Source: Massospora cicadina (Eukaryota > Entomophthoromycota > Entomophthoromycetes > Entomophthorales > Entomophthoraceae). Taken from it: DNA of 64,000 nt. The first letter of the stretch is position 1. Every line of letters starts with the position of its first letter. A program made the translations under genes and the position numbers. Of the stretch, positions 5,041 through 60,522 are shown in pieces. The stretch spans positions 1 to 64,000 of the forward strand of contig JAKSZP010006627.1 in NCBI GenBank assembly GCA_022478985.1. The letters run 5' to 3'. The notes under the pieces were generated by a model. It was not told the origin of the DNA and did not search any database. It saw nothing but the letters and a program-made list of their open reading frames with translations.

Positions 5041-6640
5041 ACCCACCCTTCTCCAGCACAAAACCTAGTTTGTGTTGACTAGATTAACGCCAACTTCCCC
5101 CGCATGGGATGGCGGTGTACCGCCTCCTGGTGTCTATTGGATGCCACCAAAACACCCATGAGCTGGCCCAGCTAGCTCTAAAAAAATTCAGGATGCTACG
5201 TCCCACCTTTTTCCTATCCCACCACCTCACATGCTTCAAGCGGTGCTCAGAAGCCCCCTGGTGCTCCCTCAGGTCAATCTGCATTTTAGCCTTCAAGTCA
5301 AGTATGGATCATCTTCCTCTATGTGAGTGCGGCCATCATTGAGATGGCCACAGCAATCTATAAACCCACCAGTTAAAGGAAATTATCCTCTTAAAGGGGT
5401 ACTTTGATCTTGGCTTTTCTTGTGAAGCGCATGCCATGGCAGCAGAAAAGCTGCCTTTAATATATAAATATACCCTAACCCACCCATATGAACTCACTTG
5501 CCAGATGAGGCCAAACTGGTGGTCCAGTTTTTCAAATTCCCACCCGCCTCTCCCCCTGAACGTCTTTGCCACAAGCTCACAGAGGGCTTGGCTGTCTACG
5601 GCGCTGTTCCTGTGCCATAATTCATGATTCCATATGTGCTAATTGTATTGATGGGCCTTGCGCATTTGCTATGATCTACCAATTCTGTTAGGACACCCAC
5701 CTTGTGATACCTCCCCGCACCATGATCAGGTCAGCCCCTGATTACTCCTTCTGGGCATGCATCAAAAATATGCGCGATCTGTATAGTTTGCTTCAAACTT
5801 GATCATATGAAGTGCTAATGCCCAGAAGATTCAGTGAAAGCTGCTTTTGCCGTTCCTCCATTGGCATAATCCCAACTAATGTCTTTACTAACTCTTTTGA
5901 ATGGGGATAAATTCTCCCTCCACCACACTTGAACACTGTAGTGGCTGCTCCCACAACTCTACCCAATCAAAGTTTGACTGCTATAACCATTCCTGAGCAG
6001 ATGGCTGCTCAGGTATCAGAAAATTTGCTGTGGTCCACTGTGAGTGGCCAATCAGCTTCTGCCACCCCACCAACTTCTGTCTCAGGCTCAGAGATGGCTG
6101 TGTCAAATACATTTGACGCCCTTGAATGGATCAATCATGATGGAATTCTTTACAGAATTAAACCTGATTTTGCCTGGTTGGATTTTTTTACTCAACACCA
6201 CAATTAAACTCCCCCACCAACTCCAACTTTCTCCAAGCCCTCCATATGGTAATTGAGCCACTTTTACAAGGGTTTCCCCATCCTGAATCTCAGAAGTGAT
6301 TTCTTTGAATATGTCAAGTTTATTATTGAAGAGAAAAACATTTGCAGCTGGCTGTGAATGCATTGATGTAGTGAGATCTTTGCTATATGAACCAAACTAC
6401 CCCCAAACGTGACAAAAAACTAAATCATTAATTGTTTGTCCAATTGTATCACCTTTTCTGAATTTCAATTCGCCCTATACATTGAGGTGATGCACACTGC
6501 TGGCCTCAATGATTTGGAGAACCCCCACCTCTTTCTCCTTCTGCTGCACGCCGCTGATACTCCCACCCCTTTTTGTCTGGCTTTGCCCGCCACCTGAAAC
6601 TGGTGATATATGAAAATCCCCTGACCCCTCATCCAATTCT
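5041..6640 (+). mobile_element. LINE ORF1 relic, copy 1
   Basis: GC-rich island of broken plus-strand coding sequence. The segment 5090-5620 aligns in order with 61800-62310. Both encode a block around P-W/L-V/C-S/L-P/R-Q/S followed by a Phe-rich stretch and then a block with HPPLPLNVFA against THLPPEVLHQ. In the better-kept copy that region lies upstream of a CCHC zinc knuckle, so this is the N-terminal part of a LINE ORF1 nucleic-acid-binding protein. Downstream, 5929-6200 encodes a Pro/Thr/Ser/Ala-rich linker-like stretch (TVVAAPTTLPNQ). The CCHC itself was not found here. No endonuclease or RT follows and no LINE 3' end is visible, so the copy is truncated or was ORF1-only. Confidence 0.55.
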
Positions 6641-6721
6641 AGAATAGAATCTTAAGCTAACGCCGTGGCATCATGCTAGGATTTTTTATCTAACTATCCC
6701 TTTATTTAGCACCTCATAATA

Positions 6722-6771
6722 AAGATGCGTGGAAGACCACCCTCTTGGGTTGGGCACCACTAGTACTAGAA
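6722..6771 (+). repeat. Candidate micro-retroinsertion d (no TSD seen)
   Basis: Ends in CTCTTGGGTTGGGCACCAC then TAGTACTAGAA, matching the 3' ends of the three TSD-flanked micro-insertions at 10463, 20114 and 52205. The upstream part GATGCGTGGAAGACCACC also loosely matches the longest of them (GATCTGTGTATCCCCC). No flanking duplication could be found, so its 5' boundary is unknown; it may be a longer or older copy. Confidence 0.45.
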
Positions 6772-6772
6772 C

Positions 6773-8760
6773 ATAGTTTGATTGTAACTCAGTTGACGCT
6801 AAAATCTATTTTGACTTAACCTAAGAGGCCTCCAATAATGGGACATTAAATAAAAAAATTTTATGTGGCTTTCCCAAGGATGTGACTCCCCTTGATTTTA
6901 TGCAATTTAGATAAAGTTGTTGATAAATAGATTGACTATAGAAATAATTATTGGAACTTAATTTCATAGGTGTAAAGCCTTAGTTACAGTCCAATTAATT
7001 GAAAAAACTTTAATTAAGCCAGTCAATTATTCAACAGAAAGTAAAGCATAATAGGTGGCATGAGGTTATAAATGGAACGAATAGAGATTCAAACATTGAA
7101 TATAAACTTGTACTCAACATCAAGATGATAGTAAGTTGGTTCAGGAATTCTTCCCTATCTCATTGGCCAGTGGATCACTAATACGGCGATTTATCTAGTC
7201 TCCACTCCGTTGTGAACTTGGTGATATTATGGAAATAAAATTAGTGCTTTAGAATATAATAATATTGATGTTTTTGGGCTTTATGATCCTTAAAACATTG
7301 ATTGATAAATCAACAATAACAATGATTTCAGGCCTTAGGCCCAATAAAGCATCAGATATAAATCAATATATATATATATTGAAACCCTAAAGTCAAAGCT
7401 TCACTTAAAAAAGAGTAAATTTTACCACTATTCTAAGCTTTAACTATGTACTGGGATTTTAAATATAACACCTAGATAGTTTGGAGATCTTTTATTTAGG
7501 CTTTCCACTTAGAACTAGATTAAAGTTATGTTGCAAAATAAAAAAATCAACAGCATCACTATATGATGTCAGTTCTTATCTACCTATAATTTTAATAATA
7601 CCAAGTGGTAGAAGAAAGATAATAGAACTTAGATAAAGCTTTTTATAAGTTGAGATAAGAATTATGTATAACAATCATATCAATACTTGTTATCACATAA
7701 CAGTACAGTCAAAGATATTCAATATTTTTATTTACTTTGTTATATTGAAGAGCTATTATAAAGAAGCAGGCTTCAATTAGGCTATCATATGGATCTAGTA
7801 TATGTCTATTTATCAAAGTTTTGATTTTACTTATTAAAGAAACACAAGCTAAAATCTAGATTTTAGTATTTAATTATAATAAGAATGTATACTTATAACA
7901 CTAAAGTGCAAACAAAATGGTAGGATGATATATAAAAATTATTTTGAGGTGGGTTGACTTTGGGACAAATATACCACACCGAGAATTTTGCTAGCTAGTA
8001 CAGGTTTAAAATTTGAAACCTGCACTAGAGTGGAAGCAGTTTTACCTGCCAGGCTAACCACCCTTGGTAGGATTATATATACTTTGAATAATTATATATG
8101 TGATTTTATATGTTAAGACATCTTTGTACATGTATATTAAATAAGTTATGGCATAATCTATAACTTACTATAGAACCTAGAGCATGACTTACTAATTTCT
8201 ATTATTTTTATAATCACTTAGTATTGAATTTTTTTTAGTAATAAGTTTAATTAAAATCTAAAAAATGAAATACAACTAAAAGTATAAAAATTCCTGTTGT
8301 ATTCTATAAAACTATACCAAAGTGAACCTATGTTGTTGTGGATTAACAGATTTTTATGTACAAGAAATCTATATACTATATAATTAGTATCTAGCTAATT
8401 ATATATGTTAATATACCTTTTTTGTAGAAATGGTCCCATCCCAAAAGAGGATCATTGCTGTATCAAATACAATAGCTCCCAAGAGATTAAGGTGAGGGAT
8501 ATGGATGGAGAAGTTGGCAAGAAAAGAAAGGAAAATACTTGCTATATCTGTGCTTCAATCATACTGAGCTAGGGAGGGCTTACAACATAGTACATATATT
8601 CAGGACATCTCAAGATGTACCTGGAAGTGGGTGATTAAGAGAGGTACTGTCCACAACAGATTATCAAAGTCAACATGTTGGAATGAGTTGAGAATGCTCC
8701 ATATAGGTGTGGTATAGGTTAAGTATTAAATGATACTGGTGTTATCTGGTAGGGACTAGC
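6773..8760. other. AT-rich stretch without genes
   Basis: No open frame of interest. A short TA run lies near 7365-7380. An isolated GC-richer patch at 7950-8075 has no recognised match. The ACTAGC immediately before the LTR at 8761 may be one half of that element's target duplication. Confidence 0.55.
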
Positions 8761-9370
8761 TGTAATGAACAGGTTCGCGCCAATATCCCAAAAGGGAATT
8801 GGGAAGTAAGAGCCACATAACTGACTCTACTAGGAACCAGCCCACCAGAGCCAATCCGCAAACCCATCCGCCAAGTTCCGCCATTGCCACGTGCCCTCAG
8901 ATCCCTGTCCACACGCTGTAGAAGGATACCAAGTAACATGCCAACGCCACACCATGCCCACTATTGGAGCTCATATCTTCCAATCCAAATATTCTATTTA
9001 AAAATAAAATATTCTTTTAACTTTGCAACCAAGTCTTTATCTGATTTTTAGGGTTATTATAGAAGACTCAACTGGCTATTCAAGCCAGCCTATCCTCAAA
9101 TATATAGTGCATTTGCAAATATAAAATAGGCTTTCCACTATGCCAAGCTCTCCTGAACCATCCCACACATCTCAGGCGAAGATTCAATTCCCCATGGAAT
9201 CTTCATCTGTAACGCTTGTAAGTCTAATGTCATATTGACTCAGATGCAATTCAGCTTTGGTCCAGTAAATTTCCCTCACTCCAATTTCTTATCATTCAGG
9301 TTTCTTTTTATATTTGGATCTAGTACTAACCAATCCGCAGCAATGTATGGATCAGGTACCACCTGATCCA
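8761..9370 (+). repeat. Left LTR of the non-autonomous element
   Basis: Starts TGTAATGAACAGG and ends CTGATCCA. Aligns throughout with 10122-10339 plus 15802-16209. Differences are mostly transitions, several at former CpG sites (for example TG against CG at the fifth and sixth bases). Confidence 0.75.
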
Positions 9371-9444
9371 TTACATCACCCCCTTGTGAAGATCAGAATC
9401 CCTGGGCCATCCCCGGCACTGCGCACTGACATCTCCCATTTGTC

Positions 9445-10170
9445 ATGTCATCTCCTCCTTCAGATCACCTTTCCACTTCACTCATGCACGCGGCTGGCCC
9501 TTTGACCATCTCCCAAATTCTGGATCCGGTGCTCTGCACTTATCTGCCTGTCACTCCCAGTGGGCCCTCGCCTGTTCTAAACAGCTCCATAACTTCTCAT
9601 CGGTATCCATCTGGGCACATGCCATCTCATCTGGCCCTTGGTATGCTCCATCCATGGCTCCTCTGGACGCTCTTCATGGATCCGCCTGTTGCTTCTGGTG
9701 GGCCACCACCCACTCCAAACTTCCCCATAGCTCTTCCTCAAAATCCACTAGGGCGCACATCATCTCGTCCACCCCTCAGCGCACTCCATCCACTGCTCTT
9801 CTGGGTGTACCTCGTGGATCCTCCTGCTGCTCCTGATGGGCCACTGCCCGCGCCATACTCCCCATTAATTCTCCTCGAGATCCACCATGGCCTGCGCCAT
9901 TTCATCCGCCCCCATGGTACACTTCCTTCCCAGTTCCTCCTGACACTTGAGGCAACCACACCTGACACTTTGCTTGCAATACTTCTTTTGGATCACCATA
10001 GATCTATTCCCTTTCTTTCTGAACCTCCACCTCCTTCAACTCACAATCCATTCCTCCCCTTCCAAAACATCCACCTCCTTCCACTCATGGCTGAACTAAG
10101 AACAAGTTGGGTTGAGTCTAATGTAACGAACAGGTTCGCGCCAATATCCCAAAAGGGAATTAGGAAGTAA
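9445..10170 (+). CDS. Pro-rich repeat ORF inside the non-autonomous LTR element
   Basis: An uninterrupted 241-codon frame, unusually long for this decayed window, starting MSSPPSDHLS and running 49 nt into the right LTR. It is rich in Pro, Leu, Ser and His. It is built on three imperfect in-frame repeats: units begin at 9522, 9678 and 9816 with DP or DPP (LDPVLC, MDPPVA, VDPPAA), spaced 52 and 46 codons. There is no signal peptide, zinc knuckle or catalytic motif. It could be a Gag-like remnant, or an accidental open frame kept by the repeats' composition. Unit spacings are multiples of three, which mildly favours past translation. Confidence 0.35.
   Translation: MSSPPSDHLSTSLMHAAGPLTISQILDPVLCTYLPVTPSGPSPVLNSSITSHRYPSGHMPSHLALGMLHPWLLWTLFMDPPVASGGPPPTPNFPIALPQNPLGRTSSRPPLSALHPLLFWVYLVDPPAAPDGPLPAPYSPLILLEIHHGLRHFIRPHGTLPSQFLLTLEATTPDTLLAILLLDHHRSIPFLSEPPPPSTHNPFLPFQNIHLLPLMAELRTSWVESNVTNRFAPISQKGIRK
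9522..9953 (+). repeat. Imperfect tandem repeats of 156 and 138 bp
   Basis: Each unit begins GGATCC and continues with a Pro-codon-rich segment containing GGTGGGCC or a variant (TGATGGGCC, AGTGGGCC). Starts at 9522, 9678 and 9816; the last is followed by a decayed end. This explains the internal periodicity of the Pro-rich frame. Confidence 0.6.
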
Positions 10171-10446: not shown

Positions 10447-10510
10447 AAAGATAAGACATGGTCCTCTTGGGTTGGGATCATCTAGTACTAGAAAAAAGAT
10501 AAAACATGGT
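10447..10510 (+). mobile_element. Micro-retroinsertion b: 32-bp insert with 16-bp TSD
   Basis: AAAGATAAGACATGGT (10447-10462) and AAAGATAAAACATGGT (10495-10510) flank a 32-bp insert, CCTCTTGGGTTGGGATCATC then TAGTACTAGAAA. The duplications agree at 15 of 16 positions. The insert ends in an A tail and lies in the 3' part of the LINE above. Insert 3' end and duplication length match micro-insertions a and c. Confidence 0.75.
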
Positions 10511-18999: not shown

Positions 19000-20240
19000 A
19001 TCTGCGTTTTAATATACCATAACAGCACGGTGTACAATGGTAAAGTAATAGCTTTGTAGCCTTAGAGCTCAACAGGTCAATCAACCATCATGTTCCTTCA
19101 TTTGTTGAAGCCACTTTAGTGATGTGTTGTCAGTGATGATGGTAAATTGGTTCCCATATAAATAAGGCAATAAGTTCTTATTTACTATTAGTATAGCCAA
19201 ACACTCTCATTGGATGACCCTGTATTTATGTTCAGCCTTTGATGAAGTTTTGCTAAAGTAAGTTAAAGGCCTATCCATTTTCTTCTCGTCTAGTTGGGAA
19301 AGAATAGCCCATGAAAACATCACTGGCATTGGTGGATAGTATGAAGGGTTATAAATTTTTGATGAAATAAACCAGGCTGAGTGACTAGGGCTGTCTGAGG
19401 TCCAATAAAACCTGGACCTTCTCAAAGTTCCATTTTAAGGGGACGTTCTTATGCAGTAGGTACACCAGAGGTTTGGTAAGGTCAGCAAATCACAGTAAGG
19501 ATTGCCTATAATACCCCATCATACCTTGGAACACCTTTATGTCCATAAGACTATGGGTAGTGTCGTCTTTTCTATTGAGATAGATTTTTTGGGTAAAGAT
19601 TAAATTCCTCACTATGTGACCTTTTACCCAAATAATTCCATATCTGGATAATAGGTTTTTATTTTGAGGGTTCAAGTATCTGAGTTGCCACTCAGAGTTA
19701 ATTAAAAACCTAATGAAGGTGCTCTATATGAACATTATAAGTTTTTAGATGACAGTAATACCTTTGAGGTATTCAGGACGCAGGACAACTTCAAGTCACC
19801 CAGGAGTCCGTCCACAGCACGTTGGAATGTGGAAGGGGCATTACATAGCCCTGCGCATGCAGTTTGTTCAAATAACCTCAGGTTCATGATTAGGCGCACT
19901 TGGCTCAATCTTTGGGTGCTAAATTTGATATTCCAGTATCAGATAGCTTCTACATTGCTGAGAATACTGGGCCCAAGCTAGGAGCCATAAAGAGTCATTA
20001 ATTTGTAGGAGGAGAACTATCCTTCCAGGTCACTGAATTGTGCTTACAGTAATCCATAACGACCTGATGCTTCACATTTTTTTCTAAACAAGAGAAGAGG
20101 AGACGCCAGGGACAGATCTGTGTATCCCCCTTTAGGTTGGGACCACCTAGTTCTAAAAAAGGAGACGTCAGGGACGTTGAGAAGGCACCAGCAATCCTGA
20201 AGTTAGGAACTCTTTAATCTCAGTATTAACTTGGGCCTCT
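19000..20240 (-). pseudogene. Gypsy F reverse transcriptase and RNase H relic
   Basis: RT begins near 20230-20180; micro-insertion a sits inside the segment equivalent to the SPWASP motif. The next blocks are VVMDYCKHNSVTWKD (about 20060) and a palm segment down to 19700; the YxDD motif is not visible. RNase H is clearer: ILSQLDEKKMDRPLTYFSK and SKAEHKYRV at 19330-19207, then TIITD and SLKWLQQMKEHDG near 19140-19070 and NADGLLRML near 19000. RNase H degrades the RNA of the RNA-DNA hybrid. Numerous stops. Confidence 0.65.
20098..20175 (+). mobile_element. Micro-retroinsertion a: 46-bp insert with 16-bp TSD
   Basis: AGGAGACGCCAGGGAC (20098-20113) and AGGAGACGTCAGGGAC (20160-20175) agree at 15 of 16 positions and flank a 46-bp insert. 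The insert begins AGATCTGTGTATCCCCC, continues TTTAGGTTGGGACCACC and ends TAGTTCTAAAAA. It lies inside the gypsy F RT: deleting the insert and one duplication restores the expected coding colinearity, so this is a true insertion. It is the longest of the three. Confidence 0.78.
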
Positions 20241-26197: not shown

Positions 26198-28260
26198 ATT
26201 GGTGCTCACTACAGGGGGTAGTTGAGTTTAGTTGAATTTACTAAGAAGATCAGATCAAACGTGTCCTATAAGAAAGAAATATGCAAGCTTTGGATGAAGT
26301 TTGAAAATGTCAACAAGAACACGCTTGACTCAGCGTAACAAACTGACCTCACTGCATTGGAAGAACGGGTGATGAAAGACAAGAAAGAGGCCAAACAAGT
26401 GAGAAAATTTAAAAATGACTTCTGTGTCAAAACTTCTTAAAATGAAAGGAGGGTAACTAATCAAAGAAGAATTATATCATAAGATTGAGTGAGAAGCAGA
26501 ATGAGAATGCATTCGCTGGCTTACTGAAGAGATAGCATGACAATTGAAACGTATAGAAGAACTGGAGGACCATAAATGTAATTGTACACAACTGGAGGCA
26601 GAAGAAGCAAAAAATGGAACGCCTAGAACTCCATTTGGGAAGAAAAATCCACCCAAAAATATTCCTGGGTCATTTAGAGCAATTTTAGAGATTACCTCAA
26701 AGTTACTCCCATTGTCAATAAAGTCGTTGGACAGGATACGCCTGTTATTAGAGCCACAGATGAATTTTAAAGCACCCCAAAATTACCCGTGTCCCATCAG
26801 GTTAATGCCCCTGCGTTTTTCAAATTACTTGACTTAACAATGTTCTGTTTCAGTGACCAACAAAAGCAGTGACTGTCATGAACTTCTTGAACACTGATTG
26901 TCAGAATCTGGTGTTACCCCATCTTAATAAGGATAACTGGTTTTATCAGGAAGCCAAGGAAGCCATTATGTTGGAATTTGGAAGCCCTATGCAGATTTTT
27001 AACTGCAAGCAGGAATTTTATAGGGATATGATTCCATAAAGACAAGACTCTAGTAGCTTTTTCTGACTGATTCTACCAGGAATCACAGATCCTATCTGGT
27101 AAAAATTTAATTCATTATGAAACCTGATTATGATGCAAGCGGCGTTACAGCCCTATCATGATTTGCACCAAGCAATGGCTTCAGCGTTAGTAACTCAAAT
27201 GTACACATCTCAAATGGCGGATCTTTGAAGATGGTGGGAGCCACTTTTGAAGCCCCAAACAGAGCAGGAAAAGTGATCCAGACTTGAGCTCAAAATACTG
27301 TAAAATTCGGTGAGACAAATAGGGAGCAACCCAATTAAGTCATGTCAGGAAACAAGCCTAAAGTAAAAAACAAGCAGAAAAGATGCAAATCCGCTTCACC
27401 AGTGTGGAAATCTGGACACATAGCCACCCAATGTAAAGCATGAAGCCCAAGGATCAGATCACCTTAGTCCAGGTAAAAGAGAAGGAAATATTCATAGTTG
27501 CGTAAAGATCCTACAGTCTAGAAAGGAAACACTCTAGCACCGCATATAAACCTTTTCCTCCCGATATTATAAATGATGAGATAGACATTTCCATTCTTTT
27601 TGTAGATAATAAACAATTAATCCACTATATCAGGTCTTTAATATGGACGTAAACAATATCACCTAAGATACAATTAAAGGTATTGAATACGAAATTATGA
27701 TGGAAGTGGCTTGACTGCATGCTTGTAATCTAGCAGACAAGACTAAATCCTCCAAGAACCAGGAGGAGTTACTCAAGATGAGATTAGATGAGGAAAACGT
27801 ATTCATTCTAGTTAGTGCAATAAAGAAATTTTTCACTGATCTATATGAACAACTAATTCTCCCTCTTGATTTTTAAAATAACGCTGCCATTCACTTAGTA
27901 ATTACTCTGTTACAATATTCTAAGTGTACCTATGTGGATATCATAGTTAACAGATTGTGAGTGATGGCAATCATTGACAGTGGAGCACCCATAGATATCT
28001 TTTCAACCAAATTGGTGAAATGAATGAAGATTTTACCAGACCCTGAACACTTAAAAGAATAAGGGATGGCCAGATCAGATATGACAATATCCTGTGGACC
28101 CTATAGAGCGCTGCCACTCGGTTTGATTTCACTTGTGCTATCAGCTCCTGCCATTGATTTCGCAAACCAGAATTACAATATCCTGATCAGGACAGAGTTC
28201 CTGAAAAAACATAGTGTGAAATGTAATTTTTGAGAATACCTTGACCATTCTGTGGCAGAC
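26198..28260 (+). pseudogene. Gypsy A Gag and protease relic
   Basis: After the primer-binding site the Gag reading holds LVLPHLNKDNWFYQEAK near 26910, a capsid-type start, and a degraded zinc knuckle (WKSGHIATQC near 27410, first Cys pair lost). Protease follows near 27960: MAIIDSGAPIDIFSTKLV carries the DSG catalytic triad of retropepsins, and IDFANQNYNILIRTEFLKKH near 28150 matches the C-terminal part. Retropepsin matures the Gag-Pol polyprotein. Stops and frame changes throughout. Confidence 0.6.
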
Positions 28261-52188: not shown

Positions 52189-52236
52189 AAAGTGAATTTT
52201 TCAACCATCTAGTACTAAAAAAAGTGAATTTTTCAA
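52189..52236 (+). mobile_element. Micro-retroinsertion c: 16-bp insert with perfect 16-bp TSD
   Basis: AAAGTGAATTTTTCAA occurs at 52189-52204 and 52221-52236, 16 of 16. Between them is only CCATCTAGTACTAAAA, identical in its first 12 bases, apart from one position, to the 3' part of micro-insertion b and ending in an A tail. Inside gypsy C. Confidence 0.75.
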
Positions 52237-54961: not shown

Positions 54962-55632
54962 TGTGACAGATCAGGGTCAGCCTGACCCGCACATTGACCT
55001 CATGAATATTGATTCAAATTTGTGTACAAATTTAGAAGTCGAATTGGGGGAATCAGACCAATTTGAAAAATCTTTAGATAAAGTGATCAAAGGTAAGGAT
55101 TCGAGGACCCACAAACAAGGACTGATCCAGCATATCAAATGACTGGTGTCCCAAATCTTCTGAATGGTCGTTATGTGGGATATGGGACTTTCCAAAACCA
55201 CAATTTGGATGTCTCTTGAGAGCCAAAATTAGGGTTTGGGTTGAAATACTTTAAATTATCAGAAATGCTTTAAAACGAGGAAATGGTAACTGAAGTTACA
55301 GTTTCATATCTCAAAAAAAATTATCAAAATAAAATCACATTGCTTGTTTTAAAATTTATTTAAAAAATTATTTCAATTGGAAGCCAGAACAATGAGCTCA
55401 GCAAGTGAGCTAGGCCAGGCATTGGCCTCATTTGCAGTCCTAACTTGGGTTCAGGCTATGCTGCTTGCTTGTAGCATTGCCAGAACCTTGGTCTGCAAAT
55501 ATGTCGCAAATTCTGAAAATGGCGCATGGGTGAGAGGGTGGTTTTCAGCGGGATTATCAGTCATATGATTTGTGACATGGCTGGTGCTGCCCAACTTATT
55601 TGTCTCATATTGGAAAGAGCCCATGCGTTACG
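54962..55632 (+). repeat. Gypsy D 5' LTR
   Basis: TGTGACAGATCAGGG to GCGTTACG. Against the 3' LTR most differences are transitions, many being CA against TG at one dinucleotide, as expected from an ancestral CpG. Contains a 63-codon open frame of no known meaning. Confidence 0.88.
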
Positions 55633-55811
55633 TAAAACAAACCTCAAATACATTCCTCTCCATTTTGTGGGGGCCCCAGGAAGAAGCGGTGGTTGCCAAT
55701 GGAGAAGAATGGAACTGACATGTCTTAACTGTGGTTATGGTGGGATTTTTGTTGGCATTTTTGCTGCGTGAAATAGGACTATTGTGGGGGGCATCCACTC
55801 AGCAACCTATA

Positions 55812-56489
55812 ATGATCCAAGCAAAACCTAAATCTACCACTGGCTGGGTGGCGTTATCCATGGAGGCGCTGGATAAACTTCACCAGGTAATAGCGCGGGT
55901 CCGCTTCCAGGCGCAGTTGGCACAAGCAATGGGGGATCCCCTCTCACAAACCCAAATCGCCCAGGTGGTGGATGCCTTATCTCCAGAACTGGCAGGATGG
56001 TTTCAAGAATTCATCGAGGAAAAGGAAAGCTTGCCTAGTTTGATGGAGGAGTGTGTAGAGTTGGTTGACTGGGCAACGTGTCTGGACAAAGCCAAAGATG
56101 AGGCCTGGTCAGTGTTATTAAAGGTCAGCCAGTGCTGTAGTTTGGTAGAGGAGTATGCGCGGGTCTTCCAGCCACTGGCAAAAGCGGCTCAGGTTACAGA
56201 TTTCCAAAACTTATGGATGTTCCTTCAGGGGTTGCAACCGGATTTGCTGGCAGCCTTGGCAGCAGCAAAGATCCAAGCCATGCTGGGGGGAAAAGTAGCT
56301 TTAGCAATTCAAGTTGAGAAACAATTAACATTGGCACGGGACTGGTGGGAGGAGTCAATGTCACCAGGGAAGGGAAAGTCTCTGGTAAGCAGTCATTCCA
56401 GTCTGGGGGTGGCACCCTGCCCTGAGAAATGTGGGAAATGTTCAAAGCGGAGGGCGTCCAGGCTATATGCTGATACCTCCATTATTTAA
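55812..56489 (+). pseudogene. Gypsy D Gag
   Basis: Open for about 225 codons from MIQAKPKSTTGW, helical and Ala/Leu/Glu/Gln-rich like a capsid (ELAGWFQEFIEEKE, LWMFLQGLQPDLLAAL). It ends in a Cys-rich segment CPEKCGKCSKRR, possibly a decayed zinc knuckle. The Met at 55731 of the longer open frame lies in the leader and is probably not the start. Gag packages the element RNA. It overlaps the protease frame by about 60 nt. Confidence 0.65.
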
Positions 56490-56966
56490 TTCACAAATGA
56501 AAGACTCATATAAAAATAAATCGCCTACTTTGCTTTATTCTCATCTGTTTATCCCCATGGAGATGCACACGGATGGGGGAATGGAGAGGGCCATGGCCCT
56601 AATTGATACCGGGGTGGAAGAAAATTATATTGAACTGGCACTAGTGGAGCATTTGAAGTTGCAGGTGTGGGAAGGACCAGTGGTAGTTTTTGCTGATACC
56701 ACACGAAGAGCGCCATCATGGCGTGTAAGCCCTTCAATGAGAATACATCAGGCCCCATTAGGTTTTGGACGCATTTTTGCGCAATTGAGAACCTGACCCA
56801 CCCTGTAGTGTTTGGGATGTGGTGGTGGCATCAGTTCAGACCACAGATCGACATGCCTTCCAGTACCATAACCTTGTACCCCAGAAGGGGTCCACTGATG
56901 AGGTGGAGGTTGCTGGTGGGTGACCAGAAGTTTGTAGGGTCTGGAACTCTGGCAAGCTATGCATGA
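56431..56966 (+). pseudogene. Gypsy D protease region
   Basis: ALIDTGVEENYI near 56600 carries the DTG aspartic-protease motif, followed by VVVFADTTRRAP. The relic continues through frame changes to about 57120, the linker before RT. Cleaves the polyprotein. Confidence 0.65.
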
Positions 56967-57156
56967 GGAGGGCTTCCCTGCGGAATACCAAGACTTTGTG
57001 GGGGTCTTTGGTCCCAAAAGGGATTCGCCATTTTTCCCTACTGGGCCATTTGCATTTTCTTTCCATTTCAAAGAAGGGTTAGAGCTTCCCCAAGGATGCT
57101 CAATGTACCCGCTGAATGAATGAGCCAAAGCCGCATTAGAGGATCACGTATACTCC

Positions 57157-57830
57157 ATGTTGAGCGAAGGCTTGATTGAGCCATCAAAATCTGCCGTGGT
57201 ATCTCCGGTGCTACTAGTGCCCAAGGCAAGCAGCGAGTTACGGCCATGTGTGGACTACCAGAGATTAAATGCAGTTACCAAACCAGATCCTTACCCAATG
57301 CTGCTTATGGAAGATATCCTACTGATGGTCACAGGATGCAACATCTTTAACAAGCTCAATTTGGCCGATGCATTCAACCAGGTGCCTGTGAGGCTGGAGC
57401 ATCAAAGGTACATGACATTCAAGTGCCACCTGGGAATGTTTCAATACCTAGTATGCCCTTTGGGCTGCGCAATGTCCCGCAGTCTTCCAATGAATGATTG
57501 ACCAGGTACTCAGTCATTTGATTGGCTGGTGCTGTATTGCTTATATGGATGACACCCTGGTGTTTTCACATTCCAAGGAGGCTCATGTACGGGATGTGCA
57601 AGAAGTCCTAAAGGCACTAGCTGGGGCGGGGTTATGGCTGAAACCATCAAAGTGCAAGTTTGATCAAGTGTCAGTCAAGTTCCTAGGGAATGTGGTATTT
57701 GGGGAAAGCCTAGGGATATGCCCAGATAAAATTCAGGTGGTATGCGCCTGGAAGGCGCCAACGGATCAGATGGGTGTTCAAAGCTTTTTGGGGACCATAA
57801 ATTTTCTCTGGCAGTTCAACAAAGACCTAT
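57157..57830 (+). pseudogene. Gypsy D reverse transcriptase
   Basis: First frame 57157-57501: LSEGLIEPSKSAVVSPVLLV, LRPCVDYQRLNAVTKPD and NKLNLADAFNQV. A frameshift near 57480 leads into 57494-58027 with IAYMDDTLVFSHSKEAH, the intact YMDD catalytic motif (about 57540), and LWLKPSKCKFDQVSVKFLG. Copies RNA into DNA. Confidence 0.8.
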
Positions 57831-58340
57831 TGAAGATGGCCTTGCCACTTACGCAATTAACGCGGAATGTAGCATTCATATGGGAGAAGGAAGAGGAGCG
57901 GGCGTTCAAATTTATTAAAAGAAAAGCTCATCTTGGCACCAGTCCTTGCCCACCTCAATCCAGGGAAGCCTTACGTGGTCAAAATGGATGCATTGAATTT
58001 TGCCGTAGGAGTGGTACTCCTACATAAGGGGGAAGATGGGTTAGAACACCCAGTGTGTTATTTCAGCCAGAAAATAATTTTGGTGGAAATGAATTACCCA
58101 ATCTATGACAAGGAGCTTCTGGAAGTGGTTGTGGCGCTGCAGGAGTGGCAGCACCACTTGTATGCCCATCACCCTTTCTTAGTCCATACTGATCATTGGG
58201 CGCTAGAATAATACTGAGAGCCAAGAAAAATGAGTCAGTGCCAAGCCCGTTGGCATGTGGAGCTGGCCTAGTATGACTTTTGAGTAGAATACCATCCAGG
58301 AGCAATTAACACCATAGCAGATTGGTTGAGTCAGGATGCG
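57831..58340 (+). pseudogene. Gypsy D RNase H
   Basis: A second frameshift near 57930 leads into VVKMDALNFAVGVVLLH (catalytic Asp), YPIYDKELLEVVVAL (catalytic Glu) and FLVHTDHWALE (catalytic Asp). It then becomes stop-interrupted through the QARW and DWLSQD blocks to about 58340. Confidence 0.75.
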
Positions 58341-58499
58341 GGGTTGGCATATGAGAAGTCCAAGTTAGAAAAATACAACTTGGAAAACATGTTCTGGGAA
58401 GACCAATTTGCAATGATGGTAAGTGAGGAGAATGAGTTGGAAAGGGAGATCCAAAGTAAGCAGAGGAGGATGCTATTTGGAAGGTGATTATGGGAAAAA

Positions 58500-59530
58500 A
58501 TGGCTGAAGGTCAGCAGCATAGCCATCATCAGACATATGGAAAGAAAAATGGAATTTTATGCCACAACTCGTAGATATGGGTACCAAACCCATCACTGCA
58601 GCGGGAAGTGCTGTGGGCGTTGCACAACCATCCGTTGGTGGGACATCAGGGGGTGGCGAAGATGATTGACCTGGTGCGGCGGAAATATTTGTGGGCTGGC
58701 TTTCAAAAGGATATAAAAAATTATGTAGCATAATGCTTGGTTTGTGCACATTTGTAGCCTTCACTAAAGCAGCTGGTGGGTAAGTTAGTTCCACTCCAAA
58801 TTACAAATTGGCCGCAGGGCTTGGTTAGTGTGGAATTTATCACAGGATTACCTAAGAATCAGGTGAAGGATGCAATAATGGTTGTGGTCAACTGGTTAAC
58901 AAAAGATGCCAAATTTTTCTCATGTACTTCAAAATTCTCAGCCAGTGACACTGCAAAGATTTTCATTGACAAGATCTTTGCCCATCATGGCTTACCAGTG
59001 GAAATCATCTCGGACTGCAGTCCACAATTCACATCAAAATTCTGGTCGAGCCTGCTCAGTAATTTGAAGATCTGGCCATGTAGGGCTTCAGCTTACCATC
59101 CTTAATCTGACGGCCAAATGGAAATAGCAAACCAAATATTGGAGCAATACCACTGATGCTACATTTCAGATCAGCAGAATGATTGGGTCTCTTGGATCAG
59201 ACTCGCTCAGTTCACTTATAATACCCACCACCAATCATTGATAGGGATGTCTCCATTCTTTGCTAATCATGGATCAAATTCAACGCTGGGTGGAGGATCA
59301 AACAGTGGAGTATGTTAGGGGGTGGACAAATAATCCCAGAAAATGACTGAAATTGGGAAAAGATTGCAGAATAACCTTGAGCGCGCCACAGCATGACAAA
59401 AAAGATATGTGGATTGGTGGAGAGCGCCAGACCCATCGTTTGCTTCAGGGGAGTGGGTATTAGTGGCGACAAAAAATTACATGGTACCGGTGAAGAGCCA
59501 GAAACTCAGACAGAAGTTCTTGGGCCCTTG
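58500..59530 (+). pseudogene. Gypsy D integrase
   Basis: The zinc-binding HH-CC region spans about 58610-58750 in broken form. The DDE core begins WPQGLVSVEFITGLP near 58820, with Glu at the position of the first catalytic Asp, then EIISDCSPQFTSKFW (second Asp, near 59010) and GQMEIANQILEQY (catalytic Glu, near 59115). QQNDWVSWIRLAQFTYN and IGMSPFFANHG follow. The first-Asp change alone would disable it. Confidence 0.75.
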
Positions 59531-59689
59531 TAAGGTGATCTAGGCTGTTAACAAGGAGGCGTTCAAATTAGATCTCCCAGAAGGGTCTAAGGCCCATCCA
59601 GTGATTCACGGTTCTCAACTCTGAGGATTTTGGGGGCGGGGACCAGAGCGACCTGAGCCACTGAATCCATGGGAGGAGTACAGCCAAGA

Positions 59690-59845
59690 GTATGAGGTCA
59701 AGCGGATTTTGAAGGAGTGTTGGGTCAGGGGTCACCAGCAGTTCCTGGTGAAATGGAAGGGATATCCGGTGAAGTAAGCGACCTGGAAAACTCCAGCGGA
59801 GTGCAAGCGATGCCTCAAGAAGATCCAAGAGTTTCTGGATTTGTG
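59690..59845 (+). pseudogene. Gypsy D chromodomain
   Basis: YEVKRILKECWVRGHQQFLV then KWKGYPVK and a stop, then ATWKTPAECKRC and IQEFLDL. The aromatic residues Y, W, Y typical of methyl-lysine-binding chromodomains are present; a single TAA interrupts it. Sits at the C-terminal end of Pol, as in chromoviruses, immediately before the 3' LTR. Confidence 0.78.
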
Positions 59846-59854
59846 AGGAAGTGA

Positions 59855-60522
59855 TGTGATGGATTGGGGTCAACCTGATCCACACATTGACCTCATGAAT
59901 ATTGTCTCAAATTTACGTACAAATTTGGAGGTCAAATTGGGGAAGTTAGACCAATTTGAAAAATCTTTAGATAAAGCAATTGTAAGTAAGAATTCAAAGA
60001 CCCACAAATAGGACTGATCTGGCGTATCAAACGACCAGTGTCCTGAATCTTCCAAATGGTCGTTATGTGGGATATGGGACTTTCCAAAACCACAATTTGG
60101 ATGTCTCTTGAGAGCCAAAATTAGGGTTTTGGTTGAAATACTTTAAATTATCAGAAATGCTTTAAAATGAGGAAATGGTAACTGAAGTTACAGTTCATAA
60201 CTCAAAAAAATTATCAAAATAAAATCACATTGCTTGTTTTAAAATTTATATAAAAAATTATTTCAATTGGAAGCCGGAACAATGAGCTCAGCAAGTGAGC
60301 TAGGCCAGGCATTGCCCTAATTTGTGGCCCTAACTTTAGGTCAGGCTATGCTGCTTGCTTATAGCATTGCCAGAACCTTGGTCCGCGAATATGTCGCGAA
60401 TTCTGGAAATGGCACATGGGTGAGAGGGTGGTTTTCAGCGGTATTATCAGTCATGTGGTTGATGACATAACTGCTGCTGCCCAACTCGTTTGTCTCATAT
60501 TGGCAAGAGCCCGTGCGTTACA
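59855..60522 (+). repeat. Gypsy D 3' LTR
   Basis: TGTGATGGATTGGGG to GCGTTACA, followed by the duplication ATGGT. Confidence 0.88.

Follow-up and report, generated by a model that had tools for sequence, protein, structure and literature searches.

Three very short inserts bounded by direct duplications raise the question of which RNA served as their template and how they came to be so short. They lie in a window of 64,000 nucleotides from Massospora cicadina (contig JAKSZP010006627.1), the whole stretch of DNA analysed here. An earlier note had attributed them to target-primed reverse transcription (TPRT) of a very short or nearly always truncated RNA, a SINE or a host RNA. Direct reading located the three inserts where that note had placed them, each between 16-bp target-site duplications (TSDs), and the relevant features of the window are as follows.

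52189-52204, plus strand: first TSD copy, AAAGTGAATTTTTCAA, 16/16 against 52221-52236
52205-52220, plus strand: micro-insert of lineage A, the final 13-14 nt of the LINE (CCATCTAGTACTA) and an A tail
52221-52236, plus strand: second TSD copy, 16/16 against 52189-52204
10447-10462, plus strand: first TSD copy, 15/16 against 10495-10510
10463-10494, plus strand: micro-insert, about 29 template nt and an A tail, similar to the 3' terminus of the older copy at 6740
10495-10510, plus strand: second TSD copy, 15/16 against 10447-10462
20098-20113, plus strand: first TSD copy, 15/16 against 20160-20175
20114-20159, plus strand: micro-insert of lineage B, 42 template nt and an A tail, beginning AGATC
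20160-20175, plus strand: second TSD copy, 15/16 against 20098-20113
6680-6771, plus strand: 3' end of a longer, diverged lineage C copy (fourth candidate), AATAAA about 48 nt before the end
16209 to 10122, minus strand: L1-like LINE of about 6 kb with reverse transcriptase and endonuclease-like fragments

The three inserts have one 3' end in common, carry an A tail and TSDs and differ at their 5' ends, which are the signs of TPRT that had been recognized before. A motif-blind scan of the window for 15-bp direct repeats (at most one mismatch, gap 8-150) returned six pairs, three of which were these same inserts, while ten dinucleotide shuffles gave 0-2. A gapped search of the window recovered four copies of the family 3' end, the fourth being at 6722-6771, which had been proposed as a further candidate. 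The motif is present there; the best TSD (13/16) was unconvincing and over 44-94 bp the segment aligns with longer copies at their 3' ends, and this site is therefore not a micro-insert. A possible fifth copy on the minus strand at 8418-8455 (profile search, E 0.0086) showed no TSD by eye and was left uncounted.

As for the template, the L1-like LINE at 10-16 kb in the window ends in a different 3' sequence and was correctly set aside from the start. A copy of about 600 bp at 8761-9370 (minus strand) keeps just the two ends of that element and is apparently an internally deleted derivative. The window also holds a Ty3-type LTR element at 54962-60521, with two LTRs of about 670 bp (89% identical) and a reverse transcriptase fragment at 57494-58027. 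An insert of about 130 bp at 7918-8081 lies between copies of TGGTAGGATKATATATA (16/17); one side is A/T-rich, and the insert may be a retroelement of a different family on the minus strand. A 5S rRNA of the host was considered as template because GGTTGGG..TAGTACT looked similar to 5S by eye; when the longest insert of the window was scanned against Rfam, the two matches were at chance level and neither was 5S, and the idea was dropped. Signs of Pol III transcription were sought in the window with tRNA and Rfam models, and both scans were empty.

The family was then followed in 354 kb of the same genome, consisting of the window and 290 kb in 29 loci of 10 kb. Micro-inserts with TSDs of their own recurred in the sampled loci, for example L012, L015, L016 and L019; weaker profile matches were left uncounted except L018:6539, which carries a TSD. 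Of 5,263 A-runs of at least four tested, 15 reached a TSD score of at least 13: seven belonged to the micro-insert family, one was the 52205 copy read in reverse, and seven (L007, L011 twice, L027 three times and window 10063) resembled tandem or low-complexity repeats. No second A-tailed template yielding such stubs was found in the 354 kb at this score, and the window LINE was the source of none of the 15. In the same sample a tandem array of a unit of about 32 bp, ACACCTAGC, and, in several loci, one of a unit of about 75 bp, AGTAAAATCTTTTCACCTC/GTGGTAATGATT, were recorded (L011:1660-1930; L027:1250-1550, L013:8850-9070, L020:3857), and the CpG observed/expected ratio was 0.35, which suggests CpG methylation in the host. 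The motif gave 0 matches in IMG/VR, and its letters 0 in PMC text.

The genome-wide search proposed in the earlier note was carried out with the 17-mer CCAYCTAGTACTARAAA, which had 32,232 exact matches in the 1.47-Gb assembly and none when read backwards; this pattern cannot detect inserts shorter than about 11-13 nt, and exact-match counts vary with copy age. The first 46 matches listed span C1 to C3:361,399, each with the sequence CCATCTAGTACTAAAAA; the 10-kb loci L012, L013, L015, L016 and L019 contain five of them, 40 were taken as 197-bp stretches, and L071 completes the set. Among these 46, most were TSD-flanked: 38 were short with a TSD score of at least 11 (34/40 of the 197-bp stretches, 4/5 in the 10-kb loci, 0/1 for L071), five were long (L013, L032, L034, L041, L042) and three short places fell below the threshold (L055, L061 and L071, the last with an imperfect, gapped duplication by eye). 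With five long copies among the 46, the motif is not part of a larger repeat at every locus, which the earlier note had named as an objection to its own reading. When the 38/46 proportion is applied to all 32,232 matches, the short TSD-bounded inserts are estimated at about 27,000.

Short duplications, slippage or chance without any retroinsertion might be invoked for sequences of this size, the more so as three of the first 46 matches listed are short and lack a TSD at the threshold. Nonetheless, exchanging the 3' flanks among the 40 stretches gave a TSD score of at least 11 in 0/200 cases against 34/40 for the real places, and neither the common 3' end with its A tail nor the absence of the backwards pattern agrees with such an origin, whose probability we consider negligible.

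The extreme shortness of the inserts was confirmed on the 34 TSD-supported copies of the sample, whose median length was 20 nt before the A tail. Measured from TSD to A tail, a distance that in a few copies contains 1-8 untemplated nt, the 38 inserts comprised 12 of 11-16 nt, 10 of 17-20 nt, 4 of 21-28 nt, 1 of 29 nt, none of 30-36 nt and 11 of 37-43 nt. The longer class starts at or within a few nucleotides of AATAA^ACATCG, its 5' end being nearly fixed in lineage A, and the 27/38 inserts of 11-29 nt have other 5' ends. The TSDs averaged 17.1 bp (42 copies, all sources), with ends blurred by the A tail. They were perfect in 22/34 copies and, past the first four positions, differed at 8/444 positions; the few mismatches suggest that the insertions are young. 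The duplicated targets are A-rich with the consensus start AARA, and A occupied TSD position 1 in 33/34 and position 2 in 31/34, an enrichment partly due to construction, since A's matching the tail determined where the boundary was set. At the 34 5' junctions, raw counts gave a target overlap of at least 1 nt in 14, no overlap in 12 and extra nucleotides in 8; the additions between TSD and template include 8 nt in L036, 6 nt (an A run) in L068 and 4 nt in L035.

The long copies identified the template of lineage A. They have CTCAGGCTCTTAGGAGCCCAGGCGTAATTCAATAAACATCGATGAATCCCC in common ahead of the motif, L042 retaining just its final part, apparently after a deletion. L032 and L011 are parts of one copy of about 6.45 kb with poly(A), at C1:~346,480-352,930 (C1:350,001-352,773 lies outside the sequence covered), which is bounded by the duplications AGATTGGTCATGGCA (15/15) and contains long open reading frames at L011:6543-7403, 7325-9064 and 9269-10000. 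In the relative L013, 92-95% identical to L011 over the compared parts, we found an endonuclease (Exo_endo_phos 2.7e-6, L013:2097-2624, a region over which L011 is 94.8% identical), a reverse transcriptase (RVT_1 7.2e-27, L013:3350-4411, whose L011/L032 counterpart lies outside the sequence covered) and a zf-RVT domain (1.7e-6). L013 ends in the lineage A 3' end, and its 5' 16-mer is located at C1:379,660, about 6 kb earlier. A protein similarity search returned 47 matches at 24-36% identity. A ~6.45-kb copy with a 15/15 TSD, the three domains of L013 and the same 3' end together indicate that the lineage A template is a LINE. This element and the window LINE both have a reverse transcriptase fragment and C-terminal regions comparable by eye, whereas their 3' ends differ.

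Thus, the part of the earlier note that looked to a SINE or host RNA does not hold for lineage A and the 52205 insert, which derives from the 3' end of another LINE. The lineage A micro-inserts have a 3' end identical to the parent, variable 5' ends and TSDs, as 5'-truncated LINE copies do, and they are subsets of the LINE 3' end, with no independent short source RNA of the kind that defines a SINE. A self-standing micro-SINE of about 41 nt, mobilised in trans from its own short RNA, would account for the fixed 5' starts of the 37-43-nt copies, and in the 354 kb L013 and lineage C provided the only long copies with a visible 3' end. We find it highly improbable, since a long LINE with an identical 3' end occurs in about 2,000 places, most inserts fall in the 11-29-nt range with other starts, and the window scans returned no Rfam family or tRNA.

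The remaining two window inserts were placed by sequence comparison. The 20114 insert is assigned to a sister lineage B, and the full-length parent of this lineage is absent from the sequence covered. Three lineage B copies (window 20114 and two in L003) begin at AGATC, the base aligned with the lineage A start, and window 20114 alone among them has a TSD score of at least 11; an AATAAA next to this start is presumed from lineage C (AATAAAGATG). The 10463 insert resembles an older lineage, its full parent likewise being absent from the sequence covered. Lineage C groups older copies of greater length, with 3' ends like the micro-inserts and again no full parent in the sequence covered, and it may be the same LINE as lineage A at greater age. 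The alignment of window 6680-6771 covers 93-94 bp in L006 and L007 and 44 bp in L004, whose boundaries are uncertain; weaker homology (67%) precedes this window segment at 6465-6568, and the true 5' end of the copy is uncertain. L006 is a copy of about 370 bp inside a Ty3-type pol (RNase H 6.6e-20; RVT_1 8.2e-7, just under the curated cut-off), with a TSD seen by eye with a 1-bp gap and none in the automated scan, and L007 is a copy of about 740 bp with a 14/16 TSD.

In lineage A the AATAAA sits about 41 nt ahead of the A tail, and copy numbers change abruptly at this point. Of two exact 16-mers placed 9 nt apart, the one just 3' of AATAAA had 6,725 matches (backwards control 0) and the one across AATAAA 2,193 (control 2); a 32-mer across the region had 1,733 matches, and a 16-mer near the LINE 5' end had 2,598 (backwards control 0). 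Among the first 100 AATAAA-crossing places listed, 70 had a correctly oriented 5' 16-mer 6,000-7,144 bp upstream; the other 30, lacking an exact 5' 16-mer, pool mutated and truncated copies and contig ends. Paired full-length copies mostly showed one of two 5'-to-3' 16-mer distances, about 6,005 or 6,380 bp, which suggests two subfamilies differing by about 375 bp. Taking 70% of 2,193, about 1,500, and the 5' count of 2,598, the full-length copies were estimated at about 1,500-2,600. The step at AATAAA together with the 5' counts and pairing indicates that most detectable insertions end within about 45 nt, and the pairing that most copies past AATAAA reach the 5' end. Lengths between about 45 nt and full length thus appear rare. 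The 5' truncation described in the earlier note is variable as stated; however, it is not smooth, the copies forming two short classes, of 11-29 and 37-43 nt, and a full-length one. This split between early abortion and full length is the new part.

A common 3' end, A tail, TSDs and A-rich targets fit TPRT by a LINE. With a probability of about 0.87, we conclude that the 52205 insert consists of an A tail and the final 13-14 nt of a ~6.4-kb LINE present in this genome, that the 52205, 10463 and 20114 inserts are likely products of TPRT usually stopping within about 45 nt, and that copies past AATAAA are mostly full length. The same stubs might have been copied from short 3' RNA fragments, produced by decay or cleavage of the LINE mRNA, for example starting beside AAUAAA, instead of by a stopped reverse transcriptase. 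The nearly fixed 5' end of the 37-43-nt class in lineage A, at the aligned place in lineage B, would be expected from such fragments, and two RNA pools would likewise give an all-or-nothing split in size; the scattered 11-29-nt ends, however, would require RNAs of just such sizes with poly(A), and on the whole we regard this origin as unlikely. The 14/34 junctions with overlap were also weighed against it. This is a raw count, lower than the almost 80% with microhomology given for truncated L1 copies in human (PMC2912911), and the junction evidence decides little here.

For the preferred reading, TPRT that stops early, the following course can be proposed. The LINE endonuclease would nick A-rich sites, in agreement with the AARA consensus observed, and the T-rich 3' end of the target would prime on the poly(A) tail. 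The reverse transcriptase would then stop at the observed 11-29 nt or around AATAA^ACATCG, about 41 nt in, or else escape and continue to the 5' end, and host repair would seal the stub between the ~17-bp duplications. A favoured block in the first 45 nt might hypothetically consist of RNA structure and/or a protein remaining on AAUAAA. A candidate stem (GATG..CATC, TCCC..GGGA) can be drawn in the 3' end. Its stability did not exceed that of shuffles (z +0.3 to +0.5), which gives no support to the hairpin as the block, and covariation was mixed, shuffles scoring as high in 2 of 500 for paired cells, 8 for the covariation score and 85 for two-sided changes; an alternative stem for lineage C was unsupported. 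Stopping may reflect a protein on AAUAAA or a reverse transcriptase that must escape from a 3' docking site, or the stubs may have been copied from RNA fragments. Tentatively, and at somewhat below even odds, TPRT by this LINE may contain an abort-or-complete switch, comparable to the abortive initiation of RNA polymerases and their escape from the promoter: roughly at least nine in ten detectable insertions would end within 45 nt, at a 3' structure or at AAUAAA held by the polyadenylation machinery, and a reverse transcriptase clearing the hexamer would usually copy about 6 kb.

The system is like human L1 in having an EN+RT LINE, A tails, TSDs (peak at 14-16 bp in human L1; PMC2912911), truncated and full-length copies and some 5' junctions with microhomology or extra nucleotides. 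In contrast to the median of 20 nt in Massospora, somatic human L1 insertions have a median of 394 bp and germline ones of 1,240 bp (PMC12016303, Table 1). In Cryptococcus neoformans the LINE CNL1 also gives insertions of varying length, ascribed to premature termination (PMC12810828); these extend from 180 bp to about 3.5 kb, and their TSDs measure 0-13 bp, whereas here the insertions are 11-43 nt or about 6 kb long with TSDs of about 17 bp. In the available parts of the open literature searched, including PMC2912911, PMC12016303, PMC13009371 and PMC12810828, no LINE was described as giving mainly insertions of 11-45 nt.

Stubs of 11-43 nt probably fall short of the sizes that repeat finders list, and such mutagenesis may be overlooked elsewhere. 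The cause of LINE truncation is a long-standing question. In this single genome TSD-bounded stubs, estimated at 27,000 or more and of near base-pair resolution, stand beside an estimated 1,500-2,600 completed copies, so that the initiation, pausing and escape of reverse transcription by a LINE could be read from genome sequence, and the abrupt fall in copy number at AAUAAA points to a possible connection of retrotransposition with the processing of mRNA 3' ends.
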